64,000 nt of DNA, taken from NCBI GenBank assembly GCA_029834535.1, contig JAQMWT010000534.1, positions 62,001 through 126,000 on the forward strand, read 5' to 3'. This document shows positions 21,661 through 64,000 of this stretch, piece after piece (positions within the stretch are counted from its first letter, which is position 1; every line of letters begins with the position of its first letter). The stretch is from Chrysophaeum taylorii (Eukaryota; Sar; Pelagophyceae; Pelagomonadales; Pelagomonadaceae). The notes beneath the pieces were generated by a model. The model searched no databases. It was not told where the DNA came from and was given only the letters and a program-made list of their open reading frames with translations. The translations under genes and the position numbers were made by a program.

Positions 21661-21766
21661 CGTCGCCAAACACCCCCCTCGAAGAAGCCCAATTCCCCTG
21701 CCAAACTACTGTAGCCTACATTGTAGAGCCACTACTACTCAGGTGCTGCGGTGCCCGTCGTCCGTC

Positions 21767-26740: not shown

Positions 26741-27079
26741 TTGCCGATCCAACAGACGATCAAGAGGAGACCACAGCGACGAAGCAGAGGAATGACATGA
26801 TGCGTCTGGCGGTGACGTAAGATTCGTTTAGGATGAGTAGGGCCAACATCCTGGATCGTATGACAATCGTAACCAACTTGCTCAAGGGCATGATCGGAAG
26901 AATCCGTTTGTCACCCAGGCCAGGAGAGATGAGTGTATGTGGGAATGCGATATGGATGCCATGAGGGGCGGAAAGAGTGGGTGCTGGAGAAGGAAGACCA
27001 CGATTGTCAAGAGGACCAATGGAAGGGGACGTTAAGTGAGCAGTGCCAGAACCAGAAACAGAGCCAGTGCCGAGAGCGG

Positions 27080-28480: not shown

Positions 28481-28515
28481 AAGCCGATATGAGGAGTCGC
28501 CGCGAAGTCAAGCAC

Positions 28516-28545
28516 AGGTTCGATCGAAACGAACACCTGCTACCA
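28516..28545 (-). other. Primer binding site of Copia C (initiator tRNA-Met type)
   Basis: On the plus strand this reads like the 3' end of a tRNA: T-arm GGTTCGATCGAAACGAACA, then acceptor-like CCTGCTACCA. The complement, TGGTAGCAGG on the minus strand, is the usual Copia priming sequence for initiator tRNA-Met. The match extends through the T-arm, longer than the common 12-18 bases. LTR-like TG follows at 28546. Confidence 0.65.
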
Positions 28546-28650
28546 TGTGACAACAGGAATGGGGCGTTGCTCTAGCACAATAAGGGAATGACGTAGGGAT
28601 ACGTGGTGCAGGGGTAAGTGTCATAGCTTCCTCACATCACCGGTGACGAC

Positions 28651-29599: not shown

Positions 29600-32195
29600 C
29601 ACCGTTGGGAATTCACTTCAGCAAGTGAACGCGAACCACTTCACCAGCAGCCACGCGCAATACTGGTGAAGTGATTTGAAGTGAACGCGTCGCCCTACGT
29701 GGTTAAAGTGAACCTTTGTGAAGCGAACGCCACCTTTTTTTTTTAACGCCAGCGCCGACGGTCCCTGCCGCGCCCCGTCAGTTTTTTCCGTGCCCCCCGC
29801 GCGCTATTGGCTCCTAGGACCTAGGCTAGGTCTGGTGCTCTTAGATTCATTCGCGTTAAATTCGGGGCGAAGGAGGAGTTAGTTACCGTGGATGGGGTTC
29901 AGCGTTTCTTACTTACTTTAGGCGGTGTGAACGAACGAACGAACGACCTCGGTATCTTCGTCTGGTTCTTCCTCATCAACCTCCATCTCCAAAGAGTCTT
30001 CGGGGAAGGAATCATGGTGCTCTCGGCGTTTTTAAAAAGGCTCGGTCTCGTGTCACGCGAGGTCGTCCCTGTACTTAAAATCCGGGCCGCCGCCGCCGCA
30101 ATGAAGATTTTTTTTTCATGCGCAGTATGCTGGCAACAACTTTGTCCGTCTCGTCCGCGCCGAGCAGCAACGTGTTTCCCTCAGTCAGGACAAGATTTCC
30201 AATGCTCAGGCAGCGCTCGCAGTAGTAGCTCTGCGCGCCGCCATGTGTACTACCAATTGAGAAAACCCTTAGAGGAGGCTCTCGCCATGTCCGGAAGGAA
30301 GGAACCCATACTGCTCCTTGGTGAGCGGTCGATACAGCTTTCCAACGTCGAGCACAGCCAGATCTGTGAAGAAGCCGACTTCATCCTTCTTCTCAAGTTC
30401 AGGATAATGCTCTTTCCAGTCGAGCGATCTCGACAGCCTGATGATCCATAGAGTAAAGACCTACCTGTTCAAACTCCTCCACATTGAAATCGGGCATCTG
30501 GTTCTCAGGCATAGCAAAAGACGGCACGTCGCCACTAATGTCGTCGTCCCAAGCGTCGGGTGCGTCGAGTGCCGCCAAGAGACTGCGGGCAGGCGCAGGC
30601 TCGGAGGGCGGCGCAGACTCGGAGGAGGAAGTATTTGCCTTTTCGTGGTGGAATGCAGTCCGCGCGTAAATCACATGTTCTTCCTTGAGCAAGCAACTTC
30701 CTGGCCTGAGCTCTCTGATTGGACGACAGGTTCCGGCAGTTGATAGTCCGAAAGTCAAGAAGGAAGGCAATCAGCTCGCGATCGTTGAATTCGTAGTCGA
30801 AGTGACGCACGTAGTTGTTTTCATTATTCCCGCAAAAAAAACGACGCTCACATTCGAGTATAGCCCGCTGAAGACAGATTTTGCCGGTCTCGCTGAGGTC
30901 GTCAACATCGACAGTCTTACGTGGCATGGATTTCGCAGTTATTTATGTTCGGAGATCAATGACTTCTAGCGTTCCAGCTCGCAGAGACTCGATCATGTTG
31001 TGCTTGATCAATGCGGCACACGCCCCCAGGTATAAGTGTTCATGTTGCACGAAAACAACGGGGTCATCCGTTATAGCAAAAATCGCCTCGAATTCAGCCA
31101 ACGCCACCCATTGCTCATTTTCACTGATTTTGTCCAAGGGAGTCCAGTGTTGGTAGCCGCGTACAGTTCGAGCACGTTGTGCATACGCAGCAAAGAACGA
31201 ACGAATAAGTTGGTATCGCGCCCGGAACCTCGTCTTATTGAGGTCGAGCTTTCGGCGATTTATTTCCCCGGCTGTAATGGCAAAAGCGCATGCAGATCCT
31301 TCAAACGTGTGCTGCCGTAAGAAAAGTACTCGGCTCCACCGTGGCCACCACTGTTCAGCAGCTCCTGGCCAGCTGGGAATGGATTGATCACCTGCTTGCC
31401 TCTGGATCGTGTCAAGTCGCCACATGCCGCTGCCGAGACCTTTGAGATATATCATGCATGTCACACACGCTTGGACCTCAACAAAAATTTCTTCAGCGAC
31501 GCCAATTGCAGCCCGGTCTCGTGAACAATGGTTGCGGCCGCCAAATCGATATCGATTCCCGAACGCTCCGCGACCACAGAACGGAGCAGAGAAGACGTGC
31601 CGGAATCGGTTCCGATAGGCCAATGGCCTGTCGCTTGAACTTCTTATCCTTGAGTGTCCCGCCGCCGTCATGCAGCACACACCTGGGGGGCGAATGGATT
31701 GCCGAAAGCCGCTTCATAAATAACACTCCGCAACGACGTGCTTCAAGATTCGAACAACAAAACAACGATATTCGGCGTTGTTCCACCCATTCATCAAACA
31801 GCGCCTTTCGAGTCATGAACGAGGGCGCTTGCCTTTTCCGCCGCCACCGCCGCGGTAATAATAATACGCCGCCTCAATTATTTGGTTGCGATGATCTTCG
31901 TCGTCAGTCAAAGGTGCGCTTGGGAAAAATCCGCTGCGACGTGTGCGCGTAGTGCCGAGCCGAGAATGCCATCATCAGGGACGAGTGCTTTGCTTGGCAT
32001 GGGCATGGTCATGAAGTATCTCGTAATATTCGATTTACCCTTCGAGGCAGGCAGCCACAACGACCGTCATAAAAAAACGCTCCTCCTTTTCTTGGTCTGT
32101 CTTCTGTTTCTTGGTGAGCTGTCAACACGTCCCAGCTCGTCGAATCCTCCTCCTCCGGATGCGCAGCCTTGAAGTGGGCCGGCCCCAAGAGGGCT
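29600..32195 (-). mobile_element. hAT copy 1 (one end missing)
   Basis: Reverse-orientation copy of the complete hAT at 40108-43580. The left edge CACCGTTGGGAATTCACTTC is the 3' terminal inverted repeat, followed by the same subterminal TTCACTTCA motifs. Homology ends at about 32195, before the 5' inverted repeat, so this copy is truncated and cannot move by itself. Bases 30241-30253 are the unoccupied site of the SINE-like insertion seen in copy 2. Confidence 0.85.
30399..31680 (-). CDS. hAT transposase fragments, copy 1
   Basis: Minus-strand frames read LFLRQHTFEGSACAFAITAG, FEAIFAITDDPVVFVQHEHL and SLRAGTLEVIDL, then in an overlapping frame TVDVDDLSETGKICLQRAIL and VRHFDYEFNDRELIAFLLDF. 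The same text is in copy 2. Frames are interrupted at several places. Assignment to hAT rests mainly on the ends and target duplication of copy 2. Confidence 0.55.
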
Positions 32196-33640
32196 TGGTC
32201 GCATCCGGATTTTTCAGGCCCCCATAAATATATTTGTCCTCGACAAAACTTGCCGGAAAATCGCTTCGATTTTTATCTCTTTCCGCTGTTCGTCTGACAG
32301 TCGCCAAGGGACCGACCGCGTCTTGGATCTGGTACAGACGAAGAAGAAGAGGTCGATTCAGCCGGAGCAGCAAAAACCGACTGCAGCAGGTTGTGGCGCG
32401 CAGTCTTCCGTTCGACTTTGAGTTTGGCCGCCGCTGACGGTTGAGGGCACAGACTGTGCAGCTCACCCAGGCGCCATCTCGATCGCACGGGCGCTTTGTT
32501 TAAAGCAGTCGACTTCCGGCCATTAAGTTGAAAGTAGGCTTGGAGCATGTTGCGGAAGTGCGGATCGTCGAATGTTCTGAGATTCGCTGGTTCCCATATA
32601 GCAATCAATAGAAGCGCGATGAGAAGGCCAGCGTGACTGCCATCTCGTTGTTGTTGCTAGTCGTCACAGTAATCATCCAAGAGAGCCCTTTCGTTGCTTT
32701 GCCTGCACAGACGCGCTATCCATCGCATCCGAAAATTCGACGACTTTGCGCGCTTGGCGGCGGCGGCGGCGTTTTCAGATAGATTTCTTGGGGGATTCTT
32801 GAAGGGCTGCAGCGGATCGGTCGTGTTCCACGATCCCCCGTAGCACTTGATCGAGTCGTAACAAGTGTCCGGCTTCGTGTAGCAATGAGTCTTCTTGCTT
32901 TCTCGAATCGGTGTCTTCCTTCGCGCACCACTCAGGATGATCGCATCGTCAAAAAGCGCTTGACAGCGGCTGGTCCGGCAGCCATACTCTCCGCTCTCGA
33001 CGAAACACGTCATGCGATGATGATGATTCGATGATTTGTCGCTGCTCCACCTTGCTGCACTTTCACCTCGAGTGGCCTGACCGGAGCTTCCCACTGTCAA
33101 AGCACCAGCAGATGCTCCCGGCGGCCTTTAGACGTCAGCACCCATCTCCAACGCGCCACCGCTTTAGACCGAGTTGGCTGGAAAGACGCCTTCGAGCACG
33201 CGACAAAAGAGGGACTCGACATGGCGCAACCCGACTGCCGGAGCGGCTTTTGTTGGGACGATGTTCACATTCCTTTTTTCGACTGGGACGCTCTGGACGG
33301 CGAGCGAGAACAAGACTTGCGAATCTGTGGTCCGCGTAATTGCGGAAGCGTCTCTTGGTGACTCCAAGTCTCCGGGTGGTAAAACCGTGTTAGGGACGGG
33401 GCTCAAAAGATCTTGTGCTAGAGTCTCCCAGGAAACTCTGCATGCGACCCGGCCCCTGCCTACTTTGTTCAGCGCACCTAACGCCAAGGTCACACCCCTT
33501 ACACCCTCCCAGCATCTAGAGGCTTCGAATGGATGGATATGAGCGACGTTGTCGACTGCGGTTGAGGACGCACTGGCTGGAACGGAGCCGGTCGGCATCG
33601 ACACTTCGACGTTAACGATCTCGTGTACCGCATCTGTCGT
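32196..33640. other. No firm gene
   Basis: Short frames on both strands. A plus-strand stretch near 33170-33330 looks protein-like (GWKDAFEHATKEGLDMAQPD, FFDWDALDGEREQDLRICG) but has no clear start and ends within 70 codons. Possibly a broken host gene. Confidence 0.3.
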
Positions 33641-40409: not shown

Positions 40410-40693
40410 ACAACCAGGTTTTTCCAAGGTGTGGTGGGACTGCGTGCGTCGACTGAAGGAACATCATCCCGACCACCGCGTTGACCAGTGGGAAGGCGAC
40501 GACGCATGTGTGTATCCGGTGCTGGGAGCGCCTGAAGGCGACGAGAGACTTCAAGAAAAGGGCACATGGCAGACGACCATGCCCTCTTGGGGCCCACTTC
40601 AAGACTGCGCATCCGGAGGAGGATTCGACGAGCTGGGACGTCGACAGCTCACCAAGAAACAGAAGACAGACCAAGAAAAGGAGGGCGTTATGA
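40410..40693 (+). CDS. BED-type zinc finger segment of hAT copy 2
   Basis: SKVWWDCVRRL in one frame, then after a frame change VCIRCWERLKATRDFKKRAH, ending in GAHFKTAHPEE. C-x2-C and H-x4-H with the preceding Trp match the BED finger found at the N terminus of hAT transposases. DITRYF follows shortly, typical of the linker after BED. Confidence 0.5.
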
Positions 40694-41059
40694 CGGCCGT
40701 GGGCGTTGTGGCAGCCTCAAAGGGTAAATCGGATATTACGAGATACTTCATGGCCATGCCCAGCCAGGCAAAGCACTCTTCCCTGATGATGGCGTTCTCG
40801 GCTCGGCACTACGTGTACACGTCGCAGCGGATTTTTTCCAAGTGCACCTTTGACTGACGACGAAGATCATCGCAACCTAATTGAGGCGGCGTATTACCGC
40901 GGCGGTGGCGGGAAAGGCAAGCGCCCTCGTTCATGACTCGAAAGGCGCTGTTTGATGAATGGGTGGACGCCGAATATCGTTGTTTTGTTGTTCGAATCTT
41001 GAAGCACGTCGTTACGGAGTGTTATTTATGAAGCGGCTTTCGGCAATCCATTCGCCCAA

Positions 41060-42276
41060 GTGCTGCGTGACGGCGGCGGGACACTCAAGGATAAGTTCAA
41101 GCGACACGCCATTGGCCTATCCTTCATCTGGCCCGATTGGAGTGGCGTTGAGACGGTGTGCGTGGGCCTCGTTCCAGCTGATGACGGAACCGATTCCGGC
41201 ACGGCTTCTCTGCTCCGTTCTGTGGTCGCGGAGCGTGCGGGAATCGATATCGATTTGGCGGCCGCAACCATTGTTCAAGACCGTGCTGCACTTGGCGTCG
41301 CCGAAGAATTTTTTGTTGAGGTCGAAGCGTGTGTGACATGCATGATATCTCAAAAATCTCGGCAGCGGCATGTGGCGACTTGACACGATCCAGAGGCAAG
41401 CAGGTGACCAATCCATTCCCAGCTGGCCAGGAGCTGCTGAACAGTGCCCACGATGGAGCCAAGTTCTTTTCATACGGCACACGTTTGAAGGATCTGCATG
41501 CGCTTTTGCCATTACAGCCGGGGAAATAAATCGCCGAAGCTCAAGCTCAAGCTCGACCTCAATAAGACGAGGTTCCGGGCGCGATACCAACTTATTCGTT
41601 CCTTGCTGCGTATGCACCACGTGCTCAAACTGTACACGGCTACCAACATTGGACTCCCTTGGACAAAATCAGTAATGAGCAATGGGTGGCGTTGGCTGAA
41701 TTCGAGGCGATTTTTGCTATAACGGATGACCCCGTTGTTTTCGTGCAACATGAACACTTATACCTGGGGGCGTGCGCCGCATTGATCAGGCACAACATGA
41801 TCGACTCTCTGCGAGCTGGGACGCTAGAAGAGTCATTGATCTCCCGAACATAAACAACTGCGAAATCCATGCCATGTAAGACTGTCGATGTTGACGACCT
41901 CAGCGAGACCGGCAAAATCTGTCTTCAGCGGGCTATACTCGAATGTGAGCGTCGTTTTTTTTGCGGGAATAATGAAAACAACTACGTGCGTCACTTCGAC
42001 TACGAATTCAACGATCGCGAGCTGATTGCCTTCCTTCTTGACTTTCGGACTATCAACTGCCGGCACCTCTCGTCCAATCTGAGAGAGCTCAGGCCAGGAA
42101 GTTGCTTGCTCAAGGAAGAATATGTGATTTACGCACGGACTGCATTCCACCACGAAAAGGCAAATACTTCCTCCTCCGAGTCTGCGCCGCCCTCCGAGCC
42201 TGCGCCTGCCCGCAGTCTCTTGGCGGCACTCGACGCACCCGACGCTTGGGACGACGACATTAGTGGCGACGCATAG
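41060..42276 (+). pseudogene. hAT transposase body, copy 2
   Basis: DGGGTLKDKFKRHAIGLSFI with WPDWSGVETVCVGLVPADDG resembles the region around the first catalytic Asp of hAT transposases (Asp-Gly, then an aromatic-rich beta-hairpin). Further on are GVAEEFFVEVEACVTCMI, FEAIFAITDDPVVFVQHEHL and, at 41869-42276, TVDVDDLSETGKICLQRAIL with VRHFDYEFNDRELIAFLLDF. Frames are separated by stops and shifts. The C-terminal dimerisation motif of the family was not seen. Confidence 0.5.
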
Positions 42277-42573
42277 CCTTCTTTTGCTATGCCTGAGAAG
42301 AACCAGATGCCCGATTTCAATGTGGAGGAGTTTGAACAGGTAGGTCTTCACTCTATGGATCATCAGGCTGTCGAGATCGTTCGACTGGAAAGAGCATTAT
42401 CCTGAACTTGAGAAGAAGGATGAAGTCGGCTTCTTCACAGATCTGGCTGCTGTGCTCGACGTTGGAAAGCTGTATCGACCGCTCACCAAGGTTGTGCAGT
42501 ATGTGTTCCTTCCTTCCGGACATGGCGAGAGCCTCCTCCTCTTAAGGGTTTTTTCAATTGGTAGTACACATGG

Positions 42574-42932
42574 CCCGATCGCCGACCGTATGGTTGCGAC
42601 GGAGGACGGTGCCTCATGAATCCTGAGCCTTGCGAGGGCATCCGCCCTCCCGGCGTAGGTTGGCACCTATTCGCCTCTCGGGCGGGCCGGTTGGCAGCCG
42701 GAACGTTCGCAGTGGGACGGGGTATGGCCGGGGGGCGAAGACGGAAGGTTATCGACGAGTTGGTTGTCAGTCACATCGCGGTCTCCTCGTCGCATGGCGA
42801 CAAGCTTGATGATCACTCTCCGCCGACCCACCTTTCGGCGCCCCTCGTCTACAGGCCCGTGATTCCGGACTGGCTCCTGTCGGTCCGGCCTGGCTCCCAT
42901 GCTCGGGAGAGGTCTGAAGTTAGTTTTAGTTA
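42574..42932 (+). mobile_element. SINE-like retroposon inside hAT copy 2
   Basis: 359 bp with a perfect 13-bp target duplication, GTAGTACACATGG (42561-42573 and 42933-42945). The empty site, with one copy of this 13-mer, survives in hAT copy 1 at 30241-30253 (reverse complement). The 3' tail is GTTAGTTTTAGTTA. A frame of about 105 codons from 42616 stays open; it is largely shared with the 21.4-kb copy and could be chance or a scrap of the source gene. Confidence 0.88.
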
Positions 42933-43588
42933 GTAGTACACATGGCGGCGCGCAGAGTTACTACTGCGAGCGCTGCCTGAGCATTGGAAATCTTGTCTCC
43001 TGACCGAGGGAAAGAAACACGGTCATGCTCGGCGCGGACGAGACGGACAAAGTTGTTGCCAGCATACTGCTGCGCATGAACAAAAATTTCTTCATTGCGG
43101 CGGCGGCGGCCCGGATTTTAAGTACAGGGACGACCTCGCGTGACACGAGACCGAGCTTTTTTAAAAACGCCGAGAGCACCATGATTCCTTCCCCGAAGAC
43201 TCTTTGGAGATGGAGGTTGATGAGGAAGAACCAGACGAAGATACCGAGGTCGTCGTTTCGTTCACATCGCCTAAAGTAAGTAAGAAACGCTGAACCCCAT
43301 CCACGGTAACTAACTCCTCCTTCGCCCCGAATTTAACGCGAATGAATCTAAGGGCACCAGACCTAGGAGCCAATAGCGCGCGGGGGGCACGGAAAAAACT
43401 GACGGGGCGCGGCAGGGACCGTCGGCGCTGGCGTTTAAAAAAAAAAAGGTGGCGTTCACTTCACCAAGGTTTAGCCACGTAGGGTGACGCGTTCACTTCA
43501 AATCACTTCACCAGTATTGCGCGTGGCTGCTGGTGAAGTCGTTCACGTTCACTTACTGAAGTGAATTCCCAACAGTGCTGAAAGTAGG

Positions 43589-46626: not shown

Positions 46627-46779
46627 TTGTAGTGATTTAAGAAAACGCTGTGTGTTATTCACACACACCGGCGGTTGTTGTCCTCGATTAAGAGACAGAT
46701 TCGAGGACAGACTACCACTGTGCGCACGCTCGGCTGAAGGGTATAATAACACAGTTGGGATTACCACTGTTCTCTACTA

Positions 46780-46800: not shown

Positions 46801-48750
46801 AGGATTCCCAGACAAGTCGTCAAGCTCGCCGACGTTGCTGAACCCAAGCAAAATGCAAACCAGTCAAGAACTACTCCAGAAGGAGTTAAAAAAGAACAAG
46901 AAGTTCGTTTCAAACAGCAAGCTCGAGCGTACGAAGCTCGGCATAAACAAGAGATGCAATATCAAGAAACTCGCTTGATGGCACAATTCAATGCCCAATT
47001 AAGCGCTTTGTCCACCCAAGTGCAAGCAACACGAGGGACACCACCACCTGCCGTCGCTGCTGCGGCTCCGCCTCCCACTCCGGCTCAACAAGATCCCACC
47101 AACTCCAAGATTAACACCTTTAGTGACCCACCAAGTGCCGTTCTCAAGTCCCTCGGCACAATGTGACACCGCAGATGCTTTCGTTTTGTGTCATGCAATT
47201 GTTCGTCGAACATTTGATGCCTGAAACAGGTATAACTCAATACTTCCTACAGGGCTTGCTTCTACGCGTGGGAATCCGTCCTGCGCGGATCTAACGATCT
47301 CGCTGACGCGCTCCTAGGAAAAGAAGCCGACTTCATCATCATCGTATATCTCCGCGAGACTGTAGTACACCCCCTCTTTCGCCGTTTCCTACATGCCGGT
47401 AGCGACTCCGTCAAGCACCCAGCATACGACGAAATTGATGCACTCGAATCCTCCTATCTCCGATAGGGGACTCGAATTCGTGCTTCAAGTTCGCCTCGGA
47501 CTCGATAAGCACACGGGCCAAAACCACATCCACCATGCGCATTATGTTTACAATGCCCCTTTCTGGACACGCCGTTCAACCCTGAAATACATGAACCAGC
47601 TCACTACATCGACTACATGCGTCATGTCCAGCAGCAACTCCGCCAGATCACCACGGAGAGCTTCTCTCTCCAACTTCCCGACAACAAGATCCTTCCTCGA
47701 GGAAATTCACCAAATTCTCCGCTTCGAGTACCCCCCAAGCTTTTGCTAAACTCCCGCGCCCCAACACACATCAAGGGCTTTTCACGTCTTGCCAACTGTC
47801 TGCGCACTCCCAACGACTCGCTGTTACTCAACGAAGACAAGGACGCCATCCACCACCTTCCTAAGCATCATCGCTCGCATCACCGTCATTTCAACGTTTG
47901 AGCGCAACTTTTGGGCTCACCTCAACAAGCCTCACCCCACTCTTAACTTCAAGCCTTTGCGCTTCGTTACGGACTTTGGTCGTCTGCCAACAAAAGACAA
48001 AGACAACCCCCGCTTTCGCTCCCGCCGTCACGGTCTCCACCGAAAACGATGATGACACTTCTCCCTCTGAAGAACACGACACCCCACCGGACCCCGTCGA
48101 AGACGCCGACCCCGTCGCCGTTTTTCTCACGGAGGCCAATCTTGATCAAGAGGAAGACAATGATCTTATTCATCAACTCCACGCCTACCGCAAGAAGCAA
48201 ATTTCGCGGCACGTCAAAAAGCCCCCTCCAAGCAAAATGCCTCCCAATCCTCGCTCCCCGTCTTACTACGACGTCAATGCCAGTCCTAAGCCCCCAAGGC
48301 CACCTCTGTCACCCCACCGAAGAACAAGCACCGTCCCCGCGCTCCTCCTGTCACCCCTGACAAACGAGAGCACCCGCATCTTCGCAAGGTCACCTTCCCC
48401 ACACAACCTCATCCCCCCAAACCATCTACTCCAGACCAACGCTTCAAGGTCCCCCTTCGTGAAGTCCGTCGCAAGCTCCAAACCATACGGAATCTTAGCC
48501 AAGCCGGTCGCCAACATACGTCCAGCTCCGAGCATATGAACAAGCTCATCAACCTCATCACCACCATTTCCGACGAGAAAATTCTTTCCGAAGCCGAAAA
48601 TGACGCCGCCGAATTCCTCCAGATGTTAACGTCCGATCCCCAAGACGATCAACCTGATGAGGGCGAAACCGAAACCGATGAACAAGACGACAAAGGACAC
48701 CTCGGTCTCTATGACGACAACGGCAAAACGTCACCGTGACTACATGCGTG
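46800..48750 (+). CDS. Gag-like region of Copia B
   Basis: Position between primer site and protease implies gag. The visible text is charged and Pro-rich (SEEHDTPPDPVEDADPVAVF, ISRHVKKPPPSKMPPNPRSP). No zinc knuckle was found. Assignment rests on order alone. Confidence 0.4.
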
Positions 48751-49462: not shown

Positions 49463-50920
49463 ATGTCACTCAAGGATGAGATTGCACACATCACCCAGCA
49501 TGTCGCAAAGACACGCTCACAATCGCACATGCTTGACTTCGTGAAGTTGCAAAACCATTCCCTGTATCTCGACGAACTGCTCAACATTCAATCTCCTGTC
49601 GTCCACTACGCCTTCAATGGCTCAGCAGACCTCTCTGCGCAGCCGCAAACCCCTCTGCTCAAAACCGCCATTATTGCAGGTGGACTCCACCAGGAAGGTT
49701 TCGACACTTTTCGCAAACGATTCGACAGCCTTACTGTCCTGGTCACCTGCGAAATCAACGATATCCTGCGCACCCGTGCGCAACAACTCTTTCCGCACGC
49801 CAAGCACTATGCGGACCTCAGAAAACTCAATGCCGCACTCCAAACCGGCAAAATACGACTCCCTACATTCGACCTGGCACTTTTCACATTGCCCTGCCAA
49901 CATCTGAGTGTAATGAAAGACTACGACGGCTATGCCACTCCGATCACCGCCGACCTTTTCGTCAAAGAACAAATCCGCTTCGTTCGTTGCACGCTCCCGA
50001 CCTATGCCATTGTCGAGAACGTACCTCCCAACCCCCGAACTCACCACGAGTATGCTCAACTCGCCAAGGGTTATCAGCGCTTAGGCTACTTCCGCCACTC
50101 CGGCGTCTACAATGCCTCTGCTTTTGGTGATGTCATCAGCAAGACTCGCTATCTCGCTGTGTATATCCGGCACCCGCTCACCGGCTACAACCTCGAGAAA
50201 ACTGCCTCTACTTGGTTAACCTCGCCTCCGAGCATGCTTCCTCTCCTGGATCCCAGTCACACCATCCCTGACGATCTCTGGATCGCCAAACCCGCCCTTC
50301 GTGGTACAGTGCCCCGTTCCACATTGGACTACTACCAGCACAAGGCCACCTACTCCTACAAGCCCACCAACGCCTCGAAACTCTCGATTTCCGAGAATGC
50401 CCGCATCTGCCAAATGCTCGCACGTCTCACCAAGCCCTTCACGGATCTCGGTCTAGATGCCGACGGCACCCCCTACGCCACAATGGCGTCCATTTCCAAC
50501 CTACTGGTTTTCACGCTCCTGCACAACCATTTGTCGCAACACCCCACTCTCGCCGCTTGGAACACCATCCGCTGTTTTCATGCCTCAGAGTCCCAATGTG
50601 CTTACCATTTGGATGGAGCCATCACCAGCACCGCCGCTACTGCCGTCGCCTGTGGCTACTTCCCGCGCGCCTCCCTCACCCTTCATTCCAGGCCCCCTAA
50701 GACTTTAGACTGTTCCCATCAACCCGCAATCTTCTCCCCAACAAGCACTCCTTTGCCCTGGATGTTCCCACGGGCACCGCCTTTCTGGTCGTCGCTTACA
50801 CCACCTCCTTGGCCGCCGCTCACAGCTGTTCGCGCCCGTCCCCACTTGGGTCCACTATATGAATCGTTCGCATCCTGGCTTTGCAGCGATCGACTCACAA
50901 CGGCGAATTGCTCTCGATGA
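49463..50920 (+). CDS. Cytosine-5 DNA methyltransferase part of Copia B
   Basis: Transfers a methyl group from S-adenosylmethionine to cytosine C5 in DNA. Family motifs in order: I, AIIAGGLHQEGFDTF (about 49670-49710, SAM binding); II, VTCEIND; III, HYADLRKL; IV, FDLALFTLPCQHLS with the catalytic Cys (about 49890); VI, AIVENVPPNPRTHHE with the ENV Glu (about 50020); VII-like, YQRLGYF; VIII-like, ASAFGDVISKTRYLAVYIR (about 50125). The following about 230 residues would be target recognition or element-specific sequence; motifs IX and X were not placed. Motif spacing fits C5-MTases rather than N6-adenine enzymes. It lies between protease and integrase, in the element's own orientation, and the same region is present in Copia A, so it belongs to the element family. 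Confidence 0.85.
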   Translation: MSLKDEIAHITQHVAKTRSQSHMLDFVKLQNHSLYLDELLNIQSPVVHYAFNGSADLSAQPQTPLLKTAIIAGGLHQEGFDTFRKRFDSLTVLVTCEINDILRTRAQQLFPHAKHYADLRKLNAALQTGKIRLPTFDLALFTLPCQHLSVMKDYDGYATPITADLFVKEQIRFVRCTLPTYAIVENVPPNPRTHHEYAQLAKGYQRLGYFRHSGVYNASAFGDVISKTRYLAVYIRHPLTGYNLEKTASTWLTSPPSMLPLLDPSHTIPDDLWIAKPALRGTVPRSTLDYYQHKATYSYKPTNASKLSISENARICQMLARLTKPFTDLGLDADGTPYATMASISNLLVFTLLHNHLSQHPTLAAWNTIRCFHASESQCAYHLDGAITSTAATAVACGYFPRASLTLHSRPPKTLDCSHQPAIFSPTSTPLPWMFPRAPPFWSSLTPPPWPPLTAVRARPHLGPLYESFASWLCSDRLTTANCSR

Positions 50921-51549
50921 CATGACCCCAAGGGACTCGTAATGTCCAAAGCACGTCCCACTTACGCGGACTATGTCGGCCACATCGGAGACACGCTTCA
51001 GAAGAGCACCAAGTGCTACTCGGTCACTGGCTCGTACCCCACCAACACGAGCTACTCCAACGCCTTGCTGCTGATCTCTCCAGACCATATCCGCTATGCG
51101 ACCCTCAACGAAATCGCAAAGTTTGGACACCACTCGGTAAACCCGGAACTGCTCCGACTATTCAAACAGCACCCGCCGTACTTCGCGTTCAAGGCACTGG
51201 CCAACGCCGTCCCGCACCACATGTTGCAGGTTCACGTCGAATGGGCTACAATACGCAATGGCATCCCCAGCCCCGGAGACATCCACCAGGCTGCAGAATT
51301 CTTCTCGGCCTTCTCCAGCCGTCTCCTAGCAGAGGAAGACCTGAACCTCACCTCCCTCTTCAATGCCGTTGCAGATGTTCACCATGATGCGATCCGCAAA
51401 CCAAGCAAATCGACAAACCTCGAGACGCTTCTTGCCGAGGCAACCATTGCTAAAATCCGAGTCGACAAGCGACCCAGCCCCCCCCCCCGCGCCTCGACTG
51501 CCGCTCTGCCTCCCTTGCACCAGCCTGGCACCACTCAGCACGCCAAAAG

Positions 51550-52200
51550 AGTGCTTTTGGTCACTCGCTGGCACCGCATACACCACCAGCAACCAGAGAT
51601 TCTTCGCCGCACGATTGCCGCTAACGTAACTAATCTCCGCCCAGGTGATGGTCGGTATCTGCAAGACTGCAGTGAATGCAAGCGCTGCCAATCGCACGTA
51701 AGCTTCAGTCACAAAAACACTTCCTGGTCACAGGATGAACTGGCCTCTGCTCCTGGCCAACACCTCCACATGGATGTGTCATACCCGAGCATCCACAAGT
51801 GCCACGGCGGATTTCGCTATATCATGCACTTTGTGTGTATCATCGCAGCACACAAATGGGTCTATTTCCTACGGAAATTAGACGCCCAAGATGTTCTGGC
51901 CGGCATCCTCTATGTGGTCAATGTGATTAAAGTCGAATTCGATGTCAATGTGAAGATCATATCGTCTGATGCCTTCTCAACTTTTCGCTCTGAAGTTTTC
52001 CACCCCCTCAAGGTGCAGCTTGGTCTCCAATTCCAAATCCTTGGTTGCCACCTACACCAGCGGAACTTTGCTGAAAACATTATCAAAGAAAACACTCGAG
52101 GCACCGTGGTTCGTCTCCTCAACCTTCGCAGTGTACGCATCGAAGGAAAGTCTATTGCCGCAGAGTATTATCACCCATTTGCTCTCCTGCATAAGACCGA
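51550..52200 (+). CDS. Integrase part of Copia B
   Basis: Zinc-binding H-H-C-C region (TRWHRIHHQQPEILRR, then CSECKRCQSH), and DDE core contexts HLHMDVSYPSIHKCHGGF (first Asp), KIISSDAFSTFR (second Asp) and RNFAENIIKENTRG (Glu). Confidence 0.85.
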
Positions 52201-53639: not shown

Positions 53640-55190
53640 AGATATTGTCTATGAGCCCGAAAAGATTGTCGAACTCAAAGGACTCAGCGAAGAAGATAAG
53701 CTAAAGCATATCGCTTCGATTCGCAAGGAAATTGAGGGATTGTGCTCCAATGGTGTCTTCAAGCTTGAGCCTTTACCGCCAGACCGTTCGTCTATCTCGA
53801 CGAAGCTCGTGCTGAAGATCAAGTATTTTGCTGACGGCACTCCAGACCGCAAAAAAGCTCGTCTAGTCGCCCGAGGTTTCTTGGCACGTGTAGGCACTGA
53901 CTTTTATGCCACATCCTCCCCAACCGCAATGCTCGCTACCAACCGGCTACTGCTCGCCATCGCTGTGAAGCACAAGCTCCCCGTCGCGCACGCGGACATT
54001 CCTCAGGCATTCATCCAATCGGCACTCGATCGCCCAGTATGGATCGACTTTCTTCGAGGAATACGTGGTTATCGACGAGTTGGTTGTCAGTCACATCGCG
54101 GTCTCCTCGTCGCATGGCGACAAGCTTGATGGTCACTCTCCGCCGACCGACCTTTCGGCGCTCCTCGTCTACAGGCCCGTGATTCCGGACTGGCACCTGT
54201 CGGTCCGGCCTGGCTCCCATGCTCGGGAGAGGTCTGAAGTTAGTTAGTTAGTTATACGTGTCTCGCCAAATCTTATCCAGAAGATACAAAAGAACCACCC
54301 AGAGTCGAAGCTCGCTCTCCGACTCGTCAAGGCTCTCTATGGCCTTAAACAGTCAGCTTTGTTGTGGAACATTAAGCTCGACTCATTTCTTCGACAACAT
54401 GAGTTCGAACGCTCACAAGTCGATACTTGTCTATATATCAATTGGGGTCGATCTATCAACCAATGGGTATTACTAACCGTTTCAGTCGATGACTTATTGA
54501 TCACTGGTACCAACACTGCCAAAATTGCGTCTCTTCGCACCGCTCTGGAGACCGAATATGGCAAGAGTACATGGCATGACAACATCAGATCCTTTCTTGG
54601 CATCGATGTTCACTACGATGTCTCCGCTGGTCATCTCACTATGAATGTAGCAGCGAAGATCACTAAGATGCTCGCTGAGCATAAGCTCAACCTACATAGT
54701 CTAGACGTCCCCTATTCGGACATCCTCTCCCAAAAGCCTTCTACTAAATTTCTCTCCGACTTGGCTGCTACCTTAGACGTATTACGCCAAAACTTCCCTT
54801 TCTACTGTGGCACCAGCATTTATTTGTCTGTCACATGTCGGCCTGACATCACCACCTTGTGCAACAAATGCTGCAAGGAGATGCACAACCCCGACCAAAC
54901 ACACCTTCTGCACTTATATGTTTTACTTCGCTATTTAAAGGGCACTCCGAATGATTCCCTCGACTATTCATCCGCCAGCCCCTCTATTACCCCCTTTATT
55001 CAGCATCTGATCGCCCACTATCCTGAACTGCATCACCTTCGTTCACCTATTATCTGTTTTATTGATGCAAGCTTTGCTGATCGTTCTGACCCTCGCTTAC
55101 GATCCAATTCTGGTGCATGTATATTCGTCTTTGGCAATCTCGTATTTTGGTCTAGCAAACGACAAACTCTTACTGCCAAAAGAAGCTGAA
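53640..55190 (+). CDS. Reverse transcriptase-RNase H part of Copia B
   Basis: RVT_2 text KLVLKIKYFADGTPDRKKAR, LPVAHADIPQAFIQSAL, catalytic SVDDLLITG near 54485, and RNase H CFIDASFADRSDPRLRSNSG near 55060. A SINE-like insertion lies at 54068-54253. Confidence 0.88.
54068..54253 (+). mobile_element. 5'-truncated SINE-like retroposon in Copia B
   Basis: 186 bp with a 7-bp target duplication, ATACGTG (54061-54067 and 54254-54260). Copia A keeps the empty site (GGAATACGTGTCTCGCC near 14840). Only the 3' half of the element is present and it ends in tandem GTTA units. Truncation at the 5' end is typical of target-primed reverse transcription. Confidence 0.88.
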
Positions 55191-57101: not shown

Positions 57102-60100
57102 ATGAAGGAAGCGATCGAGCGGACGGACCCAAAGAGAGAGGAGGTGGAGCGAGTGGACGCTATTGTTGACCGCGGGCTCGACATTGTCACGACTCTCTTG
57201 ACGATTGGAAAGGCGATTCCCCTAATCAGTGCCCCATGCGGCGTTGCCAAGGAGATCCTCGAGGACGTGCGAAAATACAAGAACAAGGCGAATGACGTGG
57301 TACAGGCCGGTCGCCGCGTCCTTGATGTCCTCGAGTTCCTCCGACTCCTCGCGCCTCGCGTCCACGAGCTAACCCCTGAATCAAAGCGCGAGGTGCGCGC
57401 GGCGATGGAAGACATCACGCGGTTGCTCGTGGAGTTCGAGACGGCCGTTAAAAAATTCGGCGAGCCCGGCTTCTTCGAGCGAGCCTGGAAGCTGCGCAAG
57501 TACGCGGGGACGCTCTCGCGCCTCGACGGTGAGATCCGCGACAAGCTCGACTTCCTGACGAATGCGTACGGCCTTGCGAGAGACGCCCACGTCGAGGGCT
57601 TGATACGAGGTATTCCGTACGAGCTCGAGCAGGCGCTCAAGAAATATGCCGACAAGCGCCACGACGACGACGAAAGGGCGCTCAAGGACGTGGCCAAGGA
57701 GGGCGGCGTCGACCCAGAGGAGACCACGACGGCGCTCGTCGTGCTGCACCAGAAAATGGACGAGCTCGTCGTGCTCGAGAAGGAGATCTATGTTAAGCTC
57801 GAGGGACAAGACGCCCTGTTGAAGCGCGCCATTGAACGCTTCGATGGCGCTGCTGTTCAAAATGCCCGCGAGAAGGTGGTCGAAGTGATGGCCAAAACAT
57901 GCTCGCTCGATGTGTACGAGAAAGGCCTCGTCTTGCAGCTGCTCGTGGCGAGCTTCGCTGACGACACCAAGACGATCGAAGCACTCCTAGAAAAGGCGCC
58001 GGATATAATCCACGAGAAGTTGTCCGACGTCGGCGGCGCCTGTTGGGCGCTCTCGGCGCTTCACGTCTCAGCGATGCGTGGCAACATAAAGGCCATCAAG
58101 AAGCTGAGAAACATGAACGGTGACTTCACCATCGCCGACGCGCGCCAGCGGATGCCGTTGCATCACGCCGCTGCTCACGGCCACGTCAACGTGGTCTCTT
58201 ATTTGCTAAGGCACTGCGGTGTCGATGTCAACGCCAAAGATCGCAGCGACCGGACAGCCTTGATGCGCGCCAGCTACGAAGGGTTCCTCGACGTCGTCGT
58301 TTGTCTTGTTGACGTCGGTAAAGCAGACGTGAACGCCGGATACGATGACGACTACGGCGAGGAAACTGCCATCGACTGTGCTCTTTGTGGAGGCCACACC
58401 GACGTTGTGAAGTTCTTGGAGGAGCGCGGGGCACGTCGACTCTCCAAACCAATGCCGATGAAAACTAGCGGTGTCTCGATGTTTACGCTGACTCTTGGCG
58501 TTTGTCAGACAGCAAGCGTGCGTCTCTTATCCCCTATCGCCGAAAAACAGTGCGACCAGAAAAGTTCGGGCGACGTCGTGATGTCAAGTAGCGGAGTTTC
58601 CGTCGATCAACCCGTGGCAGAAGAAAAAGATGCTGTTGCTGCTGACAATGTCTTGGGCACGCACGAGCGGTATTCTGGCGAATCCGTCGACACAGGCATT
58701 GTTGATCCTCTTTCCACGAAACTCACCAAACCCCATCGTTCTCTCGGCGTCGGCAACCTCGATATAGGACACCTTGTTTGCTTGCCTACGACAGGCCGGC
58801 CCGTGTTTGAAGTCGTCGACTTCGTCGCGGAAGGGGCTCATGGCGAAGTCTACGTGGTTCGATCGACGACTCGAGCAGCGGCGTCGTTTGCGATGAAATG
58901 CGTCCGTTCGGACGATGAGCTCCGCGGCGCTTCGGGCGCCGCGAAGAAGAAGAATAATATCGAGGAAGAAATCCGACTTTGTCGCGAGGCCTTGCTTATG
59001 GCCGAGCTCGGCACGCACCCTCACATCGTTTCGTTGCACTACTGCGTCGTGTCAGGCAGTAATGCAGAATTCTTGCTCTTCATGACGCTCGTCGACGGGG
59101 CCCGCGACTTGGAGCGACTCGTCTCGAGCGGCGACCTTTACGACCGGGACACGCGTCTCGTGCGCGCGTCAATCTTCTCAATACTTCAGCAATTGGCCTC
59201 GGCGCTTGCATTTTCTCACTCGCGAGGCGTTCTGCATCAAGACGTCAAGCTCGAAAACGTATTGGTCGACACCGTGGGTCGCGCCTATCTGGGGGACTTT
59301 GGTCTCGCGCGCCACGGCGATGGGGTCGGCGCGCAGCTCCGAGCGCCGCTCGAGGGTTGCACACCGGCATACGCGTCCCCCGAAGTAATTGCGGCGCTCG
59401 ACATACCGTCGGGTCGAAATCGCGGGGTCATACGGAGTGTTTCTCCCGCCGAGACTGATATTTGGGCGTTTGGAGTCGTCGCCCTACTCTTGTACCATGG
59501 TGACGAGGAGGGGTGTCCCGAAATGCAGACGGCGCTCGAGAGTATCCAGACGCTGCAGGCACCAGAGCCAAGTTGGGGGCGGCTCGAAGTGCGCGCTTGG
59601 TTGCAAAAGCACTCGCTCTCCATTCAGGAGGACACACTCGACGGTGCAGCGCTATTCGAATTGTCGCCGAACAACCTCCACGATGCTTTACCGTGGCTTC
59701 CAAAGAAACGAGATCGAGCACGATTGCGTCGAATGCTCTTGGCGCCACCTCCCGCCGTGAGCATTCTCCTTCGGCAATGTCTCGCCGCTGACATCACCCA
59801 AAGACCAACCTGCGGCGCAGCTCTGCTCGAATTGATGCAAGTTCCCGCCACGTCGACAACTCATCATCATCCTGTGGAGGAGGATGTCGCAGGGACGCTG
59901 CTCAATATTGGCCGAGCGTTGGTCGAGCTAGAAGATGTTAAACTTGCATGCAGGGCACTCGAGGCTGCGGCGGCGAGTGGCAGCGACGCGGCAGAATGTT
60001 ACTCGCTCATCGCGTGCGCGCACGTGCGCGCTGGCAGCTGCGAAGAAGCAATGGTGGCATGCGACCGGGCTTTGAGCCACGACGCAGAGCACGGCGTTGC

Positions 60101-63100
60101 GCTTTTTGCCAAGGCGGAGGCAACGTATCGCCACGACTCCTCGGACTCGCTGTTTCTCGATGTCGTACACCAGGCGCAGCTGTATGATGCGAAGCTCTTT
60201 CCCGCACCGCGCGTGGAAAAGGGCGCCGTCGCCTACCTCGAGGCCGCCAAAGACGAAGCGGACTGGGCGCGCGATCCCGTCACCGACGACCGTGTCTCGG
60301 TGTCTAAGTGTTTGCGAGACCTCCCGCCAAAAATCGTCTATCGACGCGACGTCAAGACCGATTTTCGGGGTGCGCCACCGTCCACGACGGCGGAGGGCTC
60401 GAGCGTTCGAGGAGCCCTCGCCGACGTCTTGCACATCGGCGAAGGCGTCGATGCGGCGATGCGCACGGGTCGCGTTGTGATCGAGGGAGACGCGGGCTCG
60501 GGAAAGGGGTGGATTCTGCGCGCTGTCGTTGTTGCGCTGTGCAAGAAGCAACTCGATAATGTTTCGGGTGAATCGAGCGAGTCGGAATTCCTGCTCCCAT
60601 TGACCATCGCTCTTTCGAGCATCGAAGATCCCAAGAGCGACTGGGTCGGTCGCATGATCAACAATGTTCGAGAGGGTGGCGACGCCCTTCGAGCAGCGCG
60701 GATGGACCGACGTCTTGTTCTTTGTCTCGACGGCCTCGACGAAGTCGCGCCGACAACTCGACCGTCGCTCGTCGAGAAGATTGTCGAGTTCGCCCCAGGT
60801 TGTGCTCTGACTGTCATCACCTCGCGTCCGGCAGCTGGGAACATCGGCGATCTCGCCCCGCACGGCTTTGCGTTCCTTAGCATTGCTCAAGTCGATCGCA
60901 GACGCGTCGAGGCCCTTAAGGGTATTCCTCCCGACATCGCGAGTTTCGTCGAGACTCCTCTAGCCCTCCGGCTCGCGTTGCTTGCCTTATCTTCTCCTGG
61001 AGAATTGCAGACACCAGCTTTTCTTCTTCGCGATCGTTCTGATTTGTTCTGCGTGGCGGACGAGATGTTTGTGGCTCGCGCTGTGGCGTCGACGCGACAA
61101 GACGGAGCGCTCGCACTTGCGCGTGATGTTCTCCGAGAGTGCGGCAGAGCGTGGAAGTGCGCAAGGTCTTCGAGCGACTTGCGCTCGTGGCGCACCAGGA
61201 TCGACGAACTTTGATTCAACGTGGCGACCTCGAGAGCTTGGGATCCCACCGCTTGGCTGCGGCGGTTTGGAGCTTAGCGCGGTCCGGGCTGTTGCCTCCA
61301 TTCGCGCCGCGGGGGAGCAGCTCGGTTGCCTTCTTCCACCTAACGTTCCAGGAATATTATGTTGCGGCGCTCCTTGGCCTAGACAGCTTGCTTGTTGGCG
61401 ACTCGTTCGACGTCGGCGACCCCTGGTGGCAATCACCCGCGCTCTTTGCGTTCCAGCTCGCGGAGCCGGGTGGACGCGAGCGTGCGCTCGCCGCCCTCGC
61501 TCGGAAGATTCCCGCGGTGCGTCTTGGCGAGACGGTCGAAGTCCTTTTGGAAAATTTTTGGACGTATTACCCACATATTGTTGTCTCGTTGGACGAGTTC
61601 GGATCGAGTCGCAAAATTGGTGTCAAAGAACATTCGTGGTCCGAACAAACACAAGCCGTCTCCGTGGAACGCGTGCGGCGAGATGTGGCGGGAGTTGCAG
61701 CGCTCGCACGGCGCGCAGCCGCAGAAGGCGAAACTGCGCTCGTGGCAGGACTTCTGGATCGTGGTGCCGACCTCATCACGCCAGTCGATTCCACGACGAA
61801 AGATAGCGCGCTGCATGCGGCCGCGAGGTCTGGCAGGCCCGAATGTGCTCGACTCTTGATTCGCGCCGGCGCGTGGTCGCACTCTATGAATAAGTTTGGT
61901 TCTTGTCCAGTCGACCTCGCTTTCTCTCGCGTGGTCCGAGCCGACCAAAGAGCTGAGATGGTTCGTCTCTTTCGGCCACCACAATGCGATGAAGACCTTT
62001 CCGCTCATCCTATCGTTCCAGAAGTTCTAGAGTGGCTCGACGCCAATCAAGCATTAGACGCGATTCCTAAAGACTGGGACGACGAAGTGCGTTTGTACGC
62101 GTTCGCTCAAGCGTGTCATCGAAGGCAAGTGCAAGCCGCCGCGACACTAGCGCCCACCATCGACGCGAATGGTCGTTTCCCTTGCGGCGGCAATAGTAAA
62201 CCGCTTCATTTCGCGGTCGTTAATTCGTGCATTCGTGCCGTGAGCGTGCTGATCGAACGAGGAGCGCGATTGCACGACGGGATGGGCGAATCAGCGTTGG
62301 CACTCGCTTCGAGATTGTATCGCACGGATGCTCTCTCGATGATACTTCAAAACATGCAGTTCGACGAGGAAGCTCTCGTGTTACATCCTGCTGCGCAGTT
62401 TGGGTTTATCGAATGCGTCCGCCTGTTGATCGAGAAGGGCGCCGACGTCGACAAAGCGTGGACCGACGATGGCGCGACCCCGCTTTACATGGCGTCTGAG
62501 AACGGCCACGTCGAGTGCGTCCAGCTGTTGATCGAGAAGGGCGCGGTCGTCGACAAAGCGCGGACCGACGATGGCGCGACACCGCTTTACGCGGCGTCTC
62601 AGAACGGCCACGTCGAGTGCGTCCGGCTGTTGATCGAGAAGGGCGCCGACGTCGACAAAGCGCGGACCGACGATGGCGCGACACCGCTTTACGTGGCGTC
62701 TTTTAACGGCCACGTCGAGTGCGTCCGGCTGTTGATCGAGAAGGGCGCCGACGTCGACAAAGCGCGGACCGACGATGGCGCGACACCGCTTTACGTGGCG
62801 TCTGAGAACGGCCACGTCGAGTGCGTCCAGCTGTTGATCGAGAAGGGCGCGGTCGTCGACAAAGCGCGGACCGACATCGGCGCGACCCCGCTTTGCGCGG
62901 CGTCTGAGAACGGCCACGTCGAGTGCGTCCGGCTGTTGATCGAGAAGGGCGCCGACGTCGACAAAGCGCGGACCGACGATGGCGCGACACCGCTTTACGC
63001 GGCGTCTCAGAACGGCCACGTCGAGTGCGTCCAGCTGTTGATCGAGAAGGGCGCGGTCGTCGACAAAGCGCGGACCGACATCGGCGCGACCCCGCTTTGC

Positions 63101-64000
63101 GTGGCGTCTTTTAACGGCCACGTCGAGTGCGTCCGGCTGTTGATCGAGAAGGGCGCCGACGTCGACAAAGCGCGGACCGACGATGGCGCGACACCGCTTT
63201 ACGTGGCGTCTGAGAACGGCCACGTCGAGTGCGTCCAGCTGTTGATCGAGAAGGGCGCGGTCGTCGACAAAGCGCGGACCGACATCGGCGCGACCCCGCT
63301 TTGCGTGGCGTCTGCGATCGGCCACGTCGAGTGCGTCCGGCTGTTTATCGAGAATGGAGCCGACGTCAACAAAGCGCGGACCGACAATGGCGCGACCCCG
63401 CTTTACGTGGCGTCTGCGATCGGCCACGTCGAGTGCGTCCGGCTGTTGATCGAGAAGGGTGCCGACGTCGACAAAGCGCGGACCGACAATGGCGCGACCC
63501 CGCTTTACGTGGCGTCTGCGATCGGCCATGTCGACTGCGTCCGTCTGTTGATCGAGAAAAGCGCCGACGTCGACAAAGCGCGGACCGACAATGGCGCGAC
63601 CCCGCTTTACGTGGCGTCTGCGATCGGCCACGTCGAGAGCGTCCGTCTGTTGATCGAGAAGGGCGCCGACGTCGACAAAGCGCGGACCGACGTTGGCGAA
63701 ACCCCGCTTTACGTGGCGTCTCAGAACGGCCACGTCGAGTGCGTCCAGCTGTTGATCGAGAAGGGCGCCGACGTCGACAAAGCGCGGACCGACGATGGCG
63801 CGACCCCGCTTTGCGTGGCGTCTCAGAACGGCCACGTCGAGTGCGTCCGGCTCTTGATCAGCAAAAACGCCGATGTAAACAAAGCGCGGACCGACATTGG
63901 CGAAACCCCGCTTCACGCGGCGTCTCGCAACGGCCACCTGGAGTGCGTGCAGTTTCTAATCGCGAAGGGTGCCGACGTCAAGGCAAGGACCCTAGATCAT
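57102..64000 (+). CDS. HeLo-like/ANK/kinase/SAM/TPR/NACHT/ANK STAND-type protein
   Basis: Open at the window edge. The first 1370 codons are uninterrupted (57102-61214). Residues 11-165: helical bundle resembling the MLKL 4HB/HeLo cell-death domain. 315-447: four ankyrin repeats. About 566-915: protein kinase with glycine loop GAHGEV, Lys599, HQD (His712, Asp714), Asn719, DFG (Asp732) and YASPEV, with a SAM-like domain inserted at 825-878 before the last kinase helices. 926-1010: two TPRs. 1120-1290: NACHT ATPase with Walker A GDAGSGKG (Lys1135, then Gly where Ser/Thr is usual), Walker B LCLDGLDE (Asp1210) and VITSRP. The NACHT-associated part then continues in the +2 frame from about 61124-61170, with FFHLTFQEYYVAALL at 61331-61375, ankyrins near 61806 and an array from 62400. 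The frame change may be an intron, slippage, a sequencing error or a mutation. By family logic it would be a cytosolic sensor coupling ligand binding to phosphorylation or cell death. Partners are unknown. Confidence 0.85.
62400..64000 (+). repeat. Ankyrin array: about 16 nearly identical 99-bp units
   Basis: Each 33-residue unit reads like GHVECVRLLIEKGADVDKAR followed by TDDGATPLYVASENG. Many units are almost identical at the DNA level. Two unit types partly alternate (CVRLLIEKGADVDK with TDDGATPLY, and CVQLLIEKGAVVDK with TDIGATPLC), giving a partial 198-bp higher-order period. Only the last two units before the edge diverge more (LLISKNADVNK, FLIAKGADVK). This points to recent expansion or gene conversion. 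The array runs off the window. Confidence 0.95.

Follow-up and report, generated by a model that had tools for sequence, protein, structure and literature searches.

A multicopy Ty1/Copia family of Chrysophaeum taylorii with a predicted C5-cytosine methyltransferase between protease and integrase

A stretch of 64,000 nucleotides from the pelagophyte alga Chrysophaeum taylorii (assembly GCA_029834535.1, contig JAQMWT010000534.1, positions 62,001 to 126,000 of the forward strand; hereafter the window) contains a degraded Ty1/Copia retrotransposon, Copia B, and a 5'-truncated relative, Copia A. There is very little doubt that they represent a multicopy Ty1/Copia family whose Pol holds a resident C5-cytosine methyltransferase (MTase) between protease (PR) and integrase (IN), upstream of the reverse transcriptase (RT), in the arrangement gag / PR-MTase-IN-RT. 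C5-MTases are usually regarded as tools that silence jumping genes. As far as the literature searches reach, this would be the first C5-MTase described in the Copia superfamily. The explanation that best accommodates the results as a whole is a Copia Pol whose MTase would mark the element's own DNA, to which we assign a probability of roughly 0.55.

The methyltransferase core and its place in Copia B

A predicted C5-cytosine methyltransferase core between the protease motif and the integrase is confirmed in the open reading frame (ORF) at 49463–50920, where the Pfam profile PF00145 matches residues 111–240 (window positions 49793–50182, profile positions 43–166) with an E-value of 3.3e-8 and a score of 33.8 bits against a curated cut-off of 22. 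The C5-MTase motifs that the initial annotation had read from the letters of Copia B all lie where it had placed them, starting at 49676 (AGGLHQEGF), 49889 (LPCQ), 50015 (ENVPP) and 50138 (SKTRYL), and each of 15 family members (15/15) matches PF00145 individually at E ≤ 0.01 (hmmscan). The NCBIfam dcm model detects three of three family sequences (E 3e-8 to 2e-7), yet far under its own cut-off. When profiles were compared with solved structures, the closest were the DNA C5 methylases M.HhaI and 4dkj, both weak (E 0.0064 and 0.01 in one comparison, best E 0.0092 in a second), and a single-sequence search gave no match.

The ORF proposed initially as the domain does hold the MTase core, but its end at 50920 is not the end of the domain, because the frame of Copia B departs at about 50743 and is restored by 50942 with respect to the longest open copy. 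The MTase-to-IN region of Copia B extends to about 51250 or beyond and includes a conserved stretch, IRYATLNEIAKFG...ALANAVPHHML (51089 to about 51223), that by eye resembles motifs IX–X. The whole element runs from a 5' long terminal repeat (LTR) fragment at 46634–46778 to about 55442, with protease motif, MTase, integrase and RT in this order; no 3' LTR was found, the blastn match to other copies stopping before it. The features of both elements are given below, where L025 is another copy in the genome.

46634–46778, plus strand: 5' LTR fragment of Copia B; 82% match to the 3' LTR of L025 (196 bp, TAGAGA...TCTCTA)
47042–48740, plus strand: degenerate gag region of Copia B, gag by position; blastn match to the 5' region of L025
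48991–49005, plus strand: putative protease active-site motif D-G-G-A-S, assigned by eye; D in 18 of 19 copies
49463–50743, plus strand: in-frame part of the predicted MTase of Copia B (this stretch alone exceeds the PF00145 cut-off, E 2.5e-8); family frame left at about 50743
49793–50182, plus strand: MTase core matched by Pfam (PF00145, profile positions 43–166)
49892–49900, plus strand: motif IV, catalytic P-C-Q, kept in 19/19 readable copies (of 20); stretch missing from Copia A
50015–50023, plus strand: motif VI, E-N-V; E and N in 20/20 copies, V in 19/20
50138–50152, plus strand: motif VIII-like S-K-x-R-Y; R in 20/20 copies
50744–50941, plus strand: stretch of Copia B outside the family frame, including the end of the ORF (frame comparison with the longest open copy)
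50942–51250, plus strand: MTase/linker continuation with candidate motifs IX (51089–51112) and X (51194–51217); conserved across copies, no Pfam match, profile scans not significant
51548–52090, plus strand: putative integrase with H-H/C-C zinc motif and D, D, E residues assigned by eye; rve match weak, below cut-off
53752–55189, plus strand: Copia RT (RVT_2) in two ORF pieces (PF07727 E 6e-15 and 8.6e-13), split by a repeat of about 180 bp at 54068–54246
10254–11590, plus strand: MTase remnant of Copia A, without motifs I–IV; 96% identical to Copia B 49900–51230
13741–15735, plus strand: RT ORF of Copia A, 664 residues (PF07727 E 5.8e-38)

The integrase assignment is based on the active-site residues (D in 15/15, D in 13/16 and E in 15/16) and the HH/CC residues, which are largely kept across the copies, together with rve matches that remain below cut-off in both Copia B (E 0.055) and L025 (E 0.0061). 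The gag region is open in L025 (578 residues) and in a further copy, L022 (735 residues), and neither frame gave a significant Pfam match. The repeat that splits the RT of Copia B belongs to a short dispersed repeat of about 180–360 bp that is present four times in the window (54068–54246, 12253–12617, 21296–21661 and 42574–42932) and also at several of the loci fetched from the genome; it has a GTTA-repeat tail, is flanked in Copia B by an apparent short target duplication and looks SINE-like (short interspersed nuclear element) by eye.

Copia A (about 10254–16337) matches Copia B only from position 49900 of the latter onward, and its MTase stretch shifts frame between ENVPP and SKTRYL. Thus, the matching piece previously noticed in Copia A is present, but it lacks motifs I–IV, with the PCQ, and its frame is changed; judged from its sequence, Copia A is a remnant rather than a second working copy.

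A family spread through the genome

Searches of the genome (70.8 Mb in 697 contigs) score the best candidates only. A protein-level search for the window domain yielded at least 111 matches, which merge to at least 102 places, and 24 of the 111 span at least 400 of the 406 residues without a stop. In a PF00145 search carried out exon by exon, in which 123 of 474 candidates were scored, 57 matches exceeded the cut-off; two are host genes, 44 overlap the family protein matches, five correspond to fetched family members (L011, L013, L021, L023 and L024), three more (C104, C216 and C322) have the family RT downstream, and three were left unchecked (C23 and two on C683). The union of both searches, minus the two host genes, comprises 113 places. 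The size of the family is best taken as a lower bound of about 110, because at least three places are duplicated on near-identical contigs and Copia A is not listed. Near-identical coordinates and scores on contigs C25/C521 (twice) and C10/C297 suggest duplicated (uncollapsed) contigs.

The proposal that the region recurs within Copia elements is borne out by the position of the RT, for which a family search gave 74 matches at 67 places. A same-strand RT lies 0–9 kb downstream at 44 of the 102 MTase places (at 2310–3073 bp in 42 of them and at 5–8 kb in two) and at 49 of the 113 places of the union; 2–9 kb upstream it was found at 0/102, and on the opposite strand nearby at 4/102. At 18 of the 67 RT places no MTase was detected within 9 kb. 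Copia A is one of these 18 despite its MTase remnant, so part of that number reflects the scoring limit of the search.

From the 57 PF00145 places the 20 highest-scoring were fetched as stretches of 8.8 to 10 kb, and 18 of them belong to this Copia family. Among these 18 copies an IN ORF follows on the same strand in 14, part of the RT ORF in 12 and the RVT_2 portion proper in 10. Four copies (L016, L017, L021 and L028) retain at most a short fragment of the IN ORF, the RT is absent from L022 and lies only on the other strand in L015, and L014 and L020 keep only the part of the RT ORF that precedes RVT_2. In L017 a second, divergent MTase (25% blastp match) was considered and rejected, the frames being of low complexity and rich in S, T and H by eye. 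The order PR-MTase-IN-RT, anticipated in the initial annotation, is seen in L025 in one stop-to-stop frame of 1952 residues, with the protease motif at residue 82, the MTase from residue 242, the integrase residues at 957–1130 and the RT (PF07727 E 1.6e-38); this frame stops before the RNase H region, which lies in the next ORF.

The family LTRs are about 196 bp long with ends TAGAGA...TCTCTA. Many of the fetched stretches are too short to include both, and whole LTR pairs were found in 3 of the 18 copies, L012 (96.5% identical), L026 (97.5%) and L027 (94.4%), in which the length from LTR to LTR is 9.3–9.4 kb; partial pairs are present in L025 and probably L011. Target-site duplications of 5 bp flank L026 (GTATA) and L027 (CCTGC). 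Since the whole pairs are 94–98% identical, the insertions look fairly recent. An RVT_2 type RT, an integrase upstream of it in one Pol frame, and LTR pairs with a 5-bp duplication place the family in Ty1/Copia, the last of these features resting on other genome copies and not on Copia A or B. The inclusion of the MTase in the mobile unit, claimed at the outset on the strength of the A/B pair, likewise follows from the genome-wide copies and not from that pair.

The coding sequence of the MTase core evolves under purifying selection. Pairwise dN/dS was calculated on unbroken open pieces of 20 copies, using pairs (not independent of one another) with dS > 0.1 and at least 100 codons. The median is 0.171 for MTase motifs I–VIII (167 pairs), 0.203 for the region after the core (175), 0.146 for PR (163), 0.138 for IN (117), 0.194 for the IN-to-RT stretch (109) and 0.160 for RT (88). 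In deep pairs (dS > 0.4) the MTase core gives 0.164, the following region 0.182, PR 0.136, IN 0.116, the IN-RT stretch 0.180 and RT 0.089.

The MTase and the RT are broadly co-inherited. Distances between copies in the MTase correlate with those in RT (r 0.72, 13 copies; 1 of 2000 permutations reaches this value), IN (r 0.71, 16 copies; 0/2000) and PR (r 0.68, 18 copies; 0/2000). The comparison of RT and MTase trees that had been suggested is favourable in part: 6 of 11 internal splits are common to the MTase and IN-RT trees (14 copies) and 5 of 11 differ, some of these well supported, so that the copies have probably exchanged pieces; overall, the MTase largely tracks the RT. Copia A groups with Copia B with a support of 1.0, in the MTase tree only.

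Elsewhere in the window, a third Copia lies at 23624–28553 on the minus strand (RVT_2 E 1.5e-36, with an SH3-like domain), without a PF00145 match in the genome search. A 1370-residue ORF at 57102–61214 encodes a protein kinase domain together with ankyrin repeats and a NACHT match that is weak and below cut-off, an unusual receptor-like combination. A large inverted duplication at 29600–32201 and 40574–43577 consists of pieces 88–94% identical with its arms about 8.4 kb apart, and 62307–63932 holds a tandem array of a 102-bp unit that is coding within a long minus-strand open frame.

Possible role of the enzyme

In the mechanism that we favour, the protease would release the MTase, like the rest of the Pol enzymes, within the particle, and the MTase could then methylate cytosines on the double-stranded cDNA or on the fresh insertion, the new copy thereby arriving pre-marked as self. 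Host DNMT5 could then perpetuate this mark. Because it arrives already marked, the element could evade host discrimination against unmethylated DNA, or could dampen its own later expression. Whether the MTase would be catalytically active on the DNA of its own element is, taken separately, an evenly balanced matter.

Traces of such methylation were sought in the copies. The observed/expected ratio (o/e) of CpG is 0.98–1.29 in 20 family stretches and 0.88–1.05 in five stretches of a control Copia family; the third Copia of the window has a ratio of 1.09 and a single host-gene stretch one of 1.41, the latter above the family range. A tblastn search detected no MTase in the control family, whose stretches include the region upstream of IN only in part, and no PF00145 or family-protein match lies near any of its five places. 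C/T differences are 1.47 times as frequent at CG as at CH in the youngest pairs (12 pairs, < 6% divergence), the factor being 1.27 (21 pairs), 1.18 (66) and 1.15 (70) in the older bins. When only third codon positions are counted, the family has a CG/CH transition ratio of 1.51 (1.25–1.87, 34 pairs) and the control one of 1.06 (0.68–1.51, 10 pairs). A mild CG effect in the MTase-Copia family is possible, not established, and the mutational traces of self-methylation are weak. For the roles proposed in the initial annotation, in which the MTase might mark the element's copies, resist host control or tune chromatin, the CpG composition is thus no clear support and the context of transitions no more than a hint.

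Several of these and other observations weigh against an enzyme that marks its own element. The family is not CpG-depleted relative to other Copia, since its o/e is no lower than that of the control family; C/T differences before T are about as frequent as before G in all divergence bins, and the third-position intervals of family and control overlap. At dS > 0.4 the MTase core is less constrained than either RT or IN, five splits of the trees conflict as described above, and one of the three copies with whole LTRs, L012, has no target-site duplication. Motif I is atypical (AIIAGGLHQEGF) and was not recovered by a motif I row derived from DNMT2 in a scan of the polyprotein. In the same scan the motif IX candidate ranks first, with 456 of 2000 shuffles scoring as high, and the motif X candidate ranks fourth, not significant; motifs IV and VI also come first, scores as high being reached by 199 and 419 of 2000 shuffles, so that, with motif I missed, the scan is weak even for true motifs. 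None of four C-terminal pieces with the candidate motifs IX–X matched in Pfam, and an AlphaFold model from two window sequences was useless (predicted local distance difference test, pLDDT, 32). The DNMTs of the SymbioLINE and KnitGypsy elements produced no detectable methylation in yeast, a result called inconclusive in the available text of PMC5890265.

A different substrate would account for part of this picture. Copia reverse transcription uses packaged RNA and a tRNA primer, and the domain might be an RNA cytosine methyltransferase that acts inside the particle on the element's genomic RNA or on its tRNA primer, in the way that DNMT2 modifies tRNA, leaving the DNA unmarked. An RNA substrate fits the absence of clear CpG depletion, and RNA methylation is considered for the LINE (long interspersed nuclear element) case in the available text of PMC5890265. 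However, the closest profiles are those of DNA methylases (M.HhaI and 4dkj), with no DNMT2 chain among the matches listed and all scores weak, and the host already has a DNMT2 gene of its own; we regard an RNA enzyme as unlikely. Similarly doubtful is a non-catalytic role in the particle, such as nucleic-acid binding or Pol folding. The atypical motif I and the unproven motifs IX–X could mean that binding of S-adenosylmethionine has been lost, but the PCQ is invariant in the 19 readable copies and the ENV nearly so, and core I–VIII is at least as constrained as the region that follows it (median dN/dS 0.171 vs 0.203).

At the far end of the scale, extremely improbable and already contradicted by the observations, stands a chance resemblance or nesting, i.e. 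a host or bacterial gene brought next to Copia by insertion or by an assembly join. The genome is indeed crowded with Copia (150 of 150 scored RVT_2 matches pass the cut-off, of 1670 candidates), so neighbours are common. Nevertheless, the order is fixed at 44 places whereas the upstream and opposite-strand controls give 0/102 and 4/102, a single open frame spans PR, MTase, IN and RT, LTRs and target-site duplications bracket the unit, and its parts are co-inherited.

The marking of the element's own DNA would take place in a host in which two PF00145 genes of its own were identified. The two host genes matched by PF00145 are a DNMT2 (L009; best match 1g55, E 3.9e-39), whose opposite strand encodes a light-harvesting protein (PF00504 E 1.2e-13; best solved matches VCPI-6 and FCP8), and a DNMT5 with an SNF2 domain (L010; 7r76, E 2.4e-129). 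The light-harvesting protein points to an alga of the red plastid lineage, probably an ochrophyte. Besides these two and the retrotransposon family no other PF00145 gene was identified among the candidates scored (123/474, with 3/57 matches unchecked); a divergent or intron-split DNMT1, 3 or 6 could be missed by this partial scoring, the exon-by-exon reading and the three unchecked matches. Comparison of the retrotransposon MTase profile with host DNMT5 and DNMT2 was not significant (E 0.14 and 0.24), and of four pairwise tests against them only the one with the C-terminus of DNMT2 was nominally so (28 of 1000 shuffles), the method being too insensitive to recover even the core that Pfam detects significantly. 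According to the available text of PMC10538959, DNMT5 is an enzyme of the maintenance type, and C. neoformans, which depends on it, lacks de novo activity. If DNMT5 is of the maintenance type, a retrotransposon-borne de novo enzyme becomes of interest. That the retrotransposon MTase would be the only de novo DNA cytosine methyltransferase of the genome, host DNMT5 merely copying and DNMT2 being a tRNA enzyme, is a long shot, less probable than either alternative substrate or role considered above; were it true, the methylation landscape of the host would be seeded by its own Copia elements and merely copied by the host.

Relatives of the MTase were not found at E ≤ 0.001 or E ≤ 1 among about 8000 candidates scored from a database of 5.8 billion proteins. 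Pattern searches gave 3 and 12 matches in viral contigs and 45 in prokaryote genomes, none of which was confirmed as a relative. This absence is weak evidence because the searches used exact words, candidates were limited in length and near-genome records may have been omitted. Host or bacterial contamination was rejected on the same protein, viral and prokaryote searches, with the same weakness.

Comparison with known systems

MTase-bearing retrotransposons of algae had been mentioned in the initial annotation, rightly in outline: according to the available text of PMC5890265, which cites Iyer et al. 2011 for RT-linked DNMTs, LINE and DIRS elements of Symbiodinium and a Gypsy element of Klebsormidium carry a DNMT, while the Copia elements of Symbiodinium are given there as lacking one. 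De novo methylation of CG in yeast is described for some retrotransposon DNMTs, among them those of DIRS elements (PMC5890265), which is a precedent for activity. In the elements of de Mendoza et al. 2018 the MTase lies in the coding frame with Ka/Ks < 0.2, as it does in the C. taylorii family (median 0.171). Those elements are LINE, DIRS or Gypsy, whereas the family has a Copia RT (RVT_2) with the integrase upstream.

The closest parallel in structure is KnitGypsy-Dnmt3 of Klebsormidium nitens, described in the available text of PMC5890265 as a multicopy LTR element with a C5-MTase inside the Pol ORF and under purifying selection. It differs in being a Gypsy element with an MTase of the DNMT3 clade, whereas the C. 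taylorii family is Copia, its MTase being divergent, with an atypical motif I and without a relative among the approximately 8000 database candidates scored. With respect to the DNMT3 clade of the DIRS and Gypsy cases, the family MTase is nearest in profile to M.HhaI, weakly, and no homologue at E ≤ 1 appeared among the same candidates. SymbioDIRS-Dnmt3 and SymbioLINE-Dnmt (PMC5890265, available text) are also algal retroelements with a C5-MTase, many copies and coding-level constraint, but they are tyrosine-recombinase and LINE elements, respectively, and not LTR/Copia with a DDE integrase. Furthermore, SymbioLINE is CpG-depleted vs LINEs without DNMT (PMC5890265), unlike the C. taylorii family when set against one other Copia family.

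PMC12344493 names the retrotransposon DNMT3 'LTR Copia and DIRS', with no Copia element described in its available text; 'LTR Copia' looks like a slip, because the available text of the 2018 paper cited there says Gypsy. No MTase-bearing Copia is described in the available text of PMC9998398, PMC3145265, PMC12477816 or PMC6338049, and none of the matches listed in the literature searches reported a C5-MTase in Copia by title or start of abstract, most subscription papers being outside their scope. Sola1 of Ectocarpus (PMC12477816, available text) is likewise an algal transposon that possibly modifies its own DNA, but it is a DNA transposon with a ParB-like domain and a methyltransferase predicted for N4-methylcytosine or N6-methyladenine, not C5. 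Host DNMT5 and DNMT2 are PF00145 enzymes like the retrotransposon MTase, yet their genes lie outside Copia.

The family would be one more case of a retrotransposon that independently acquired a C5-MTase, in a red-lineage alga, beside the charophyte and dinoflagellate cases. A host in which only DNMT5 and DNMT2 were seen offers a test of how new methylation originates in lineages that lack DNMT1 or DNMT3. That such enzymes have been taken up repeatedly, by LINE, DIRS, Gypsy and now Copia elements, argues for a benefit to the element from methylating something in the course of retrotransposition, which reverses the usual view of these enzymes as instruments of host silencing.
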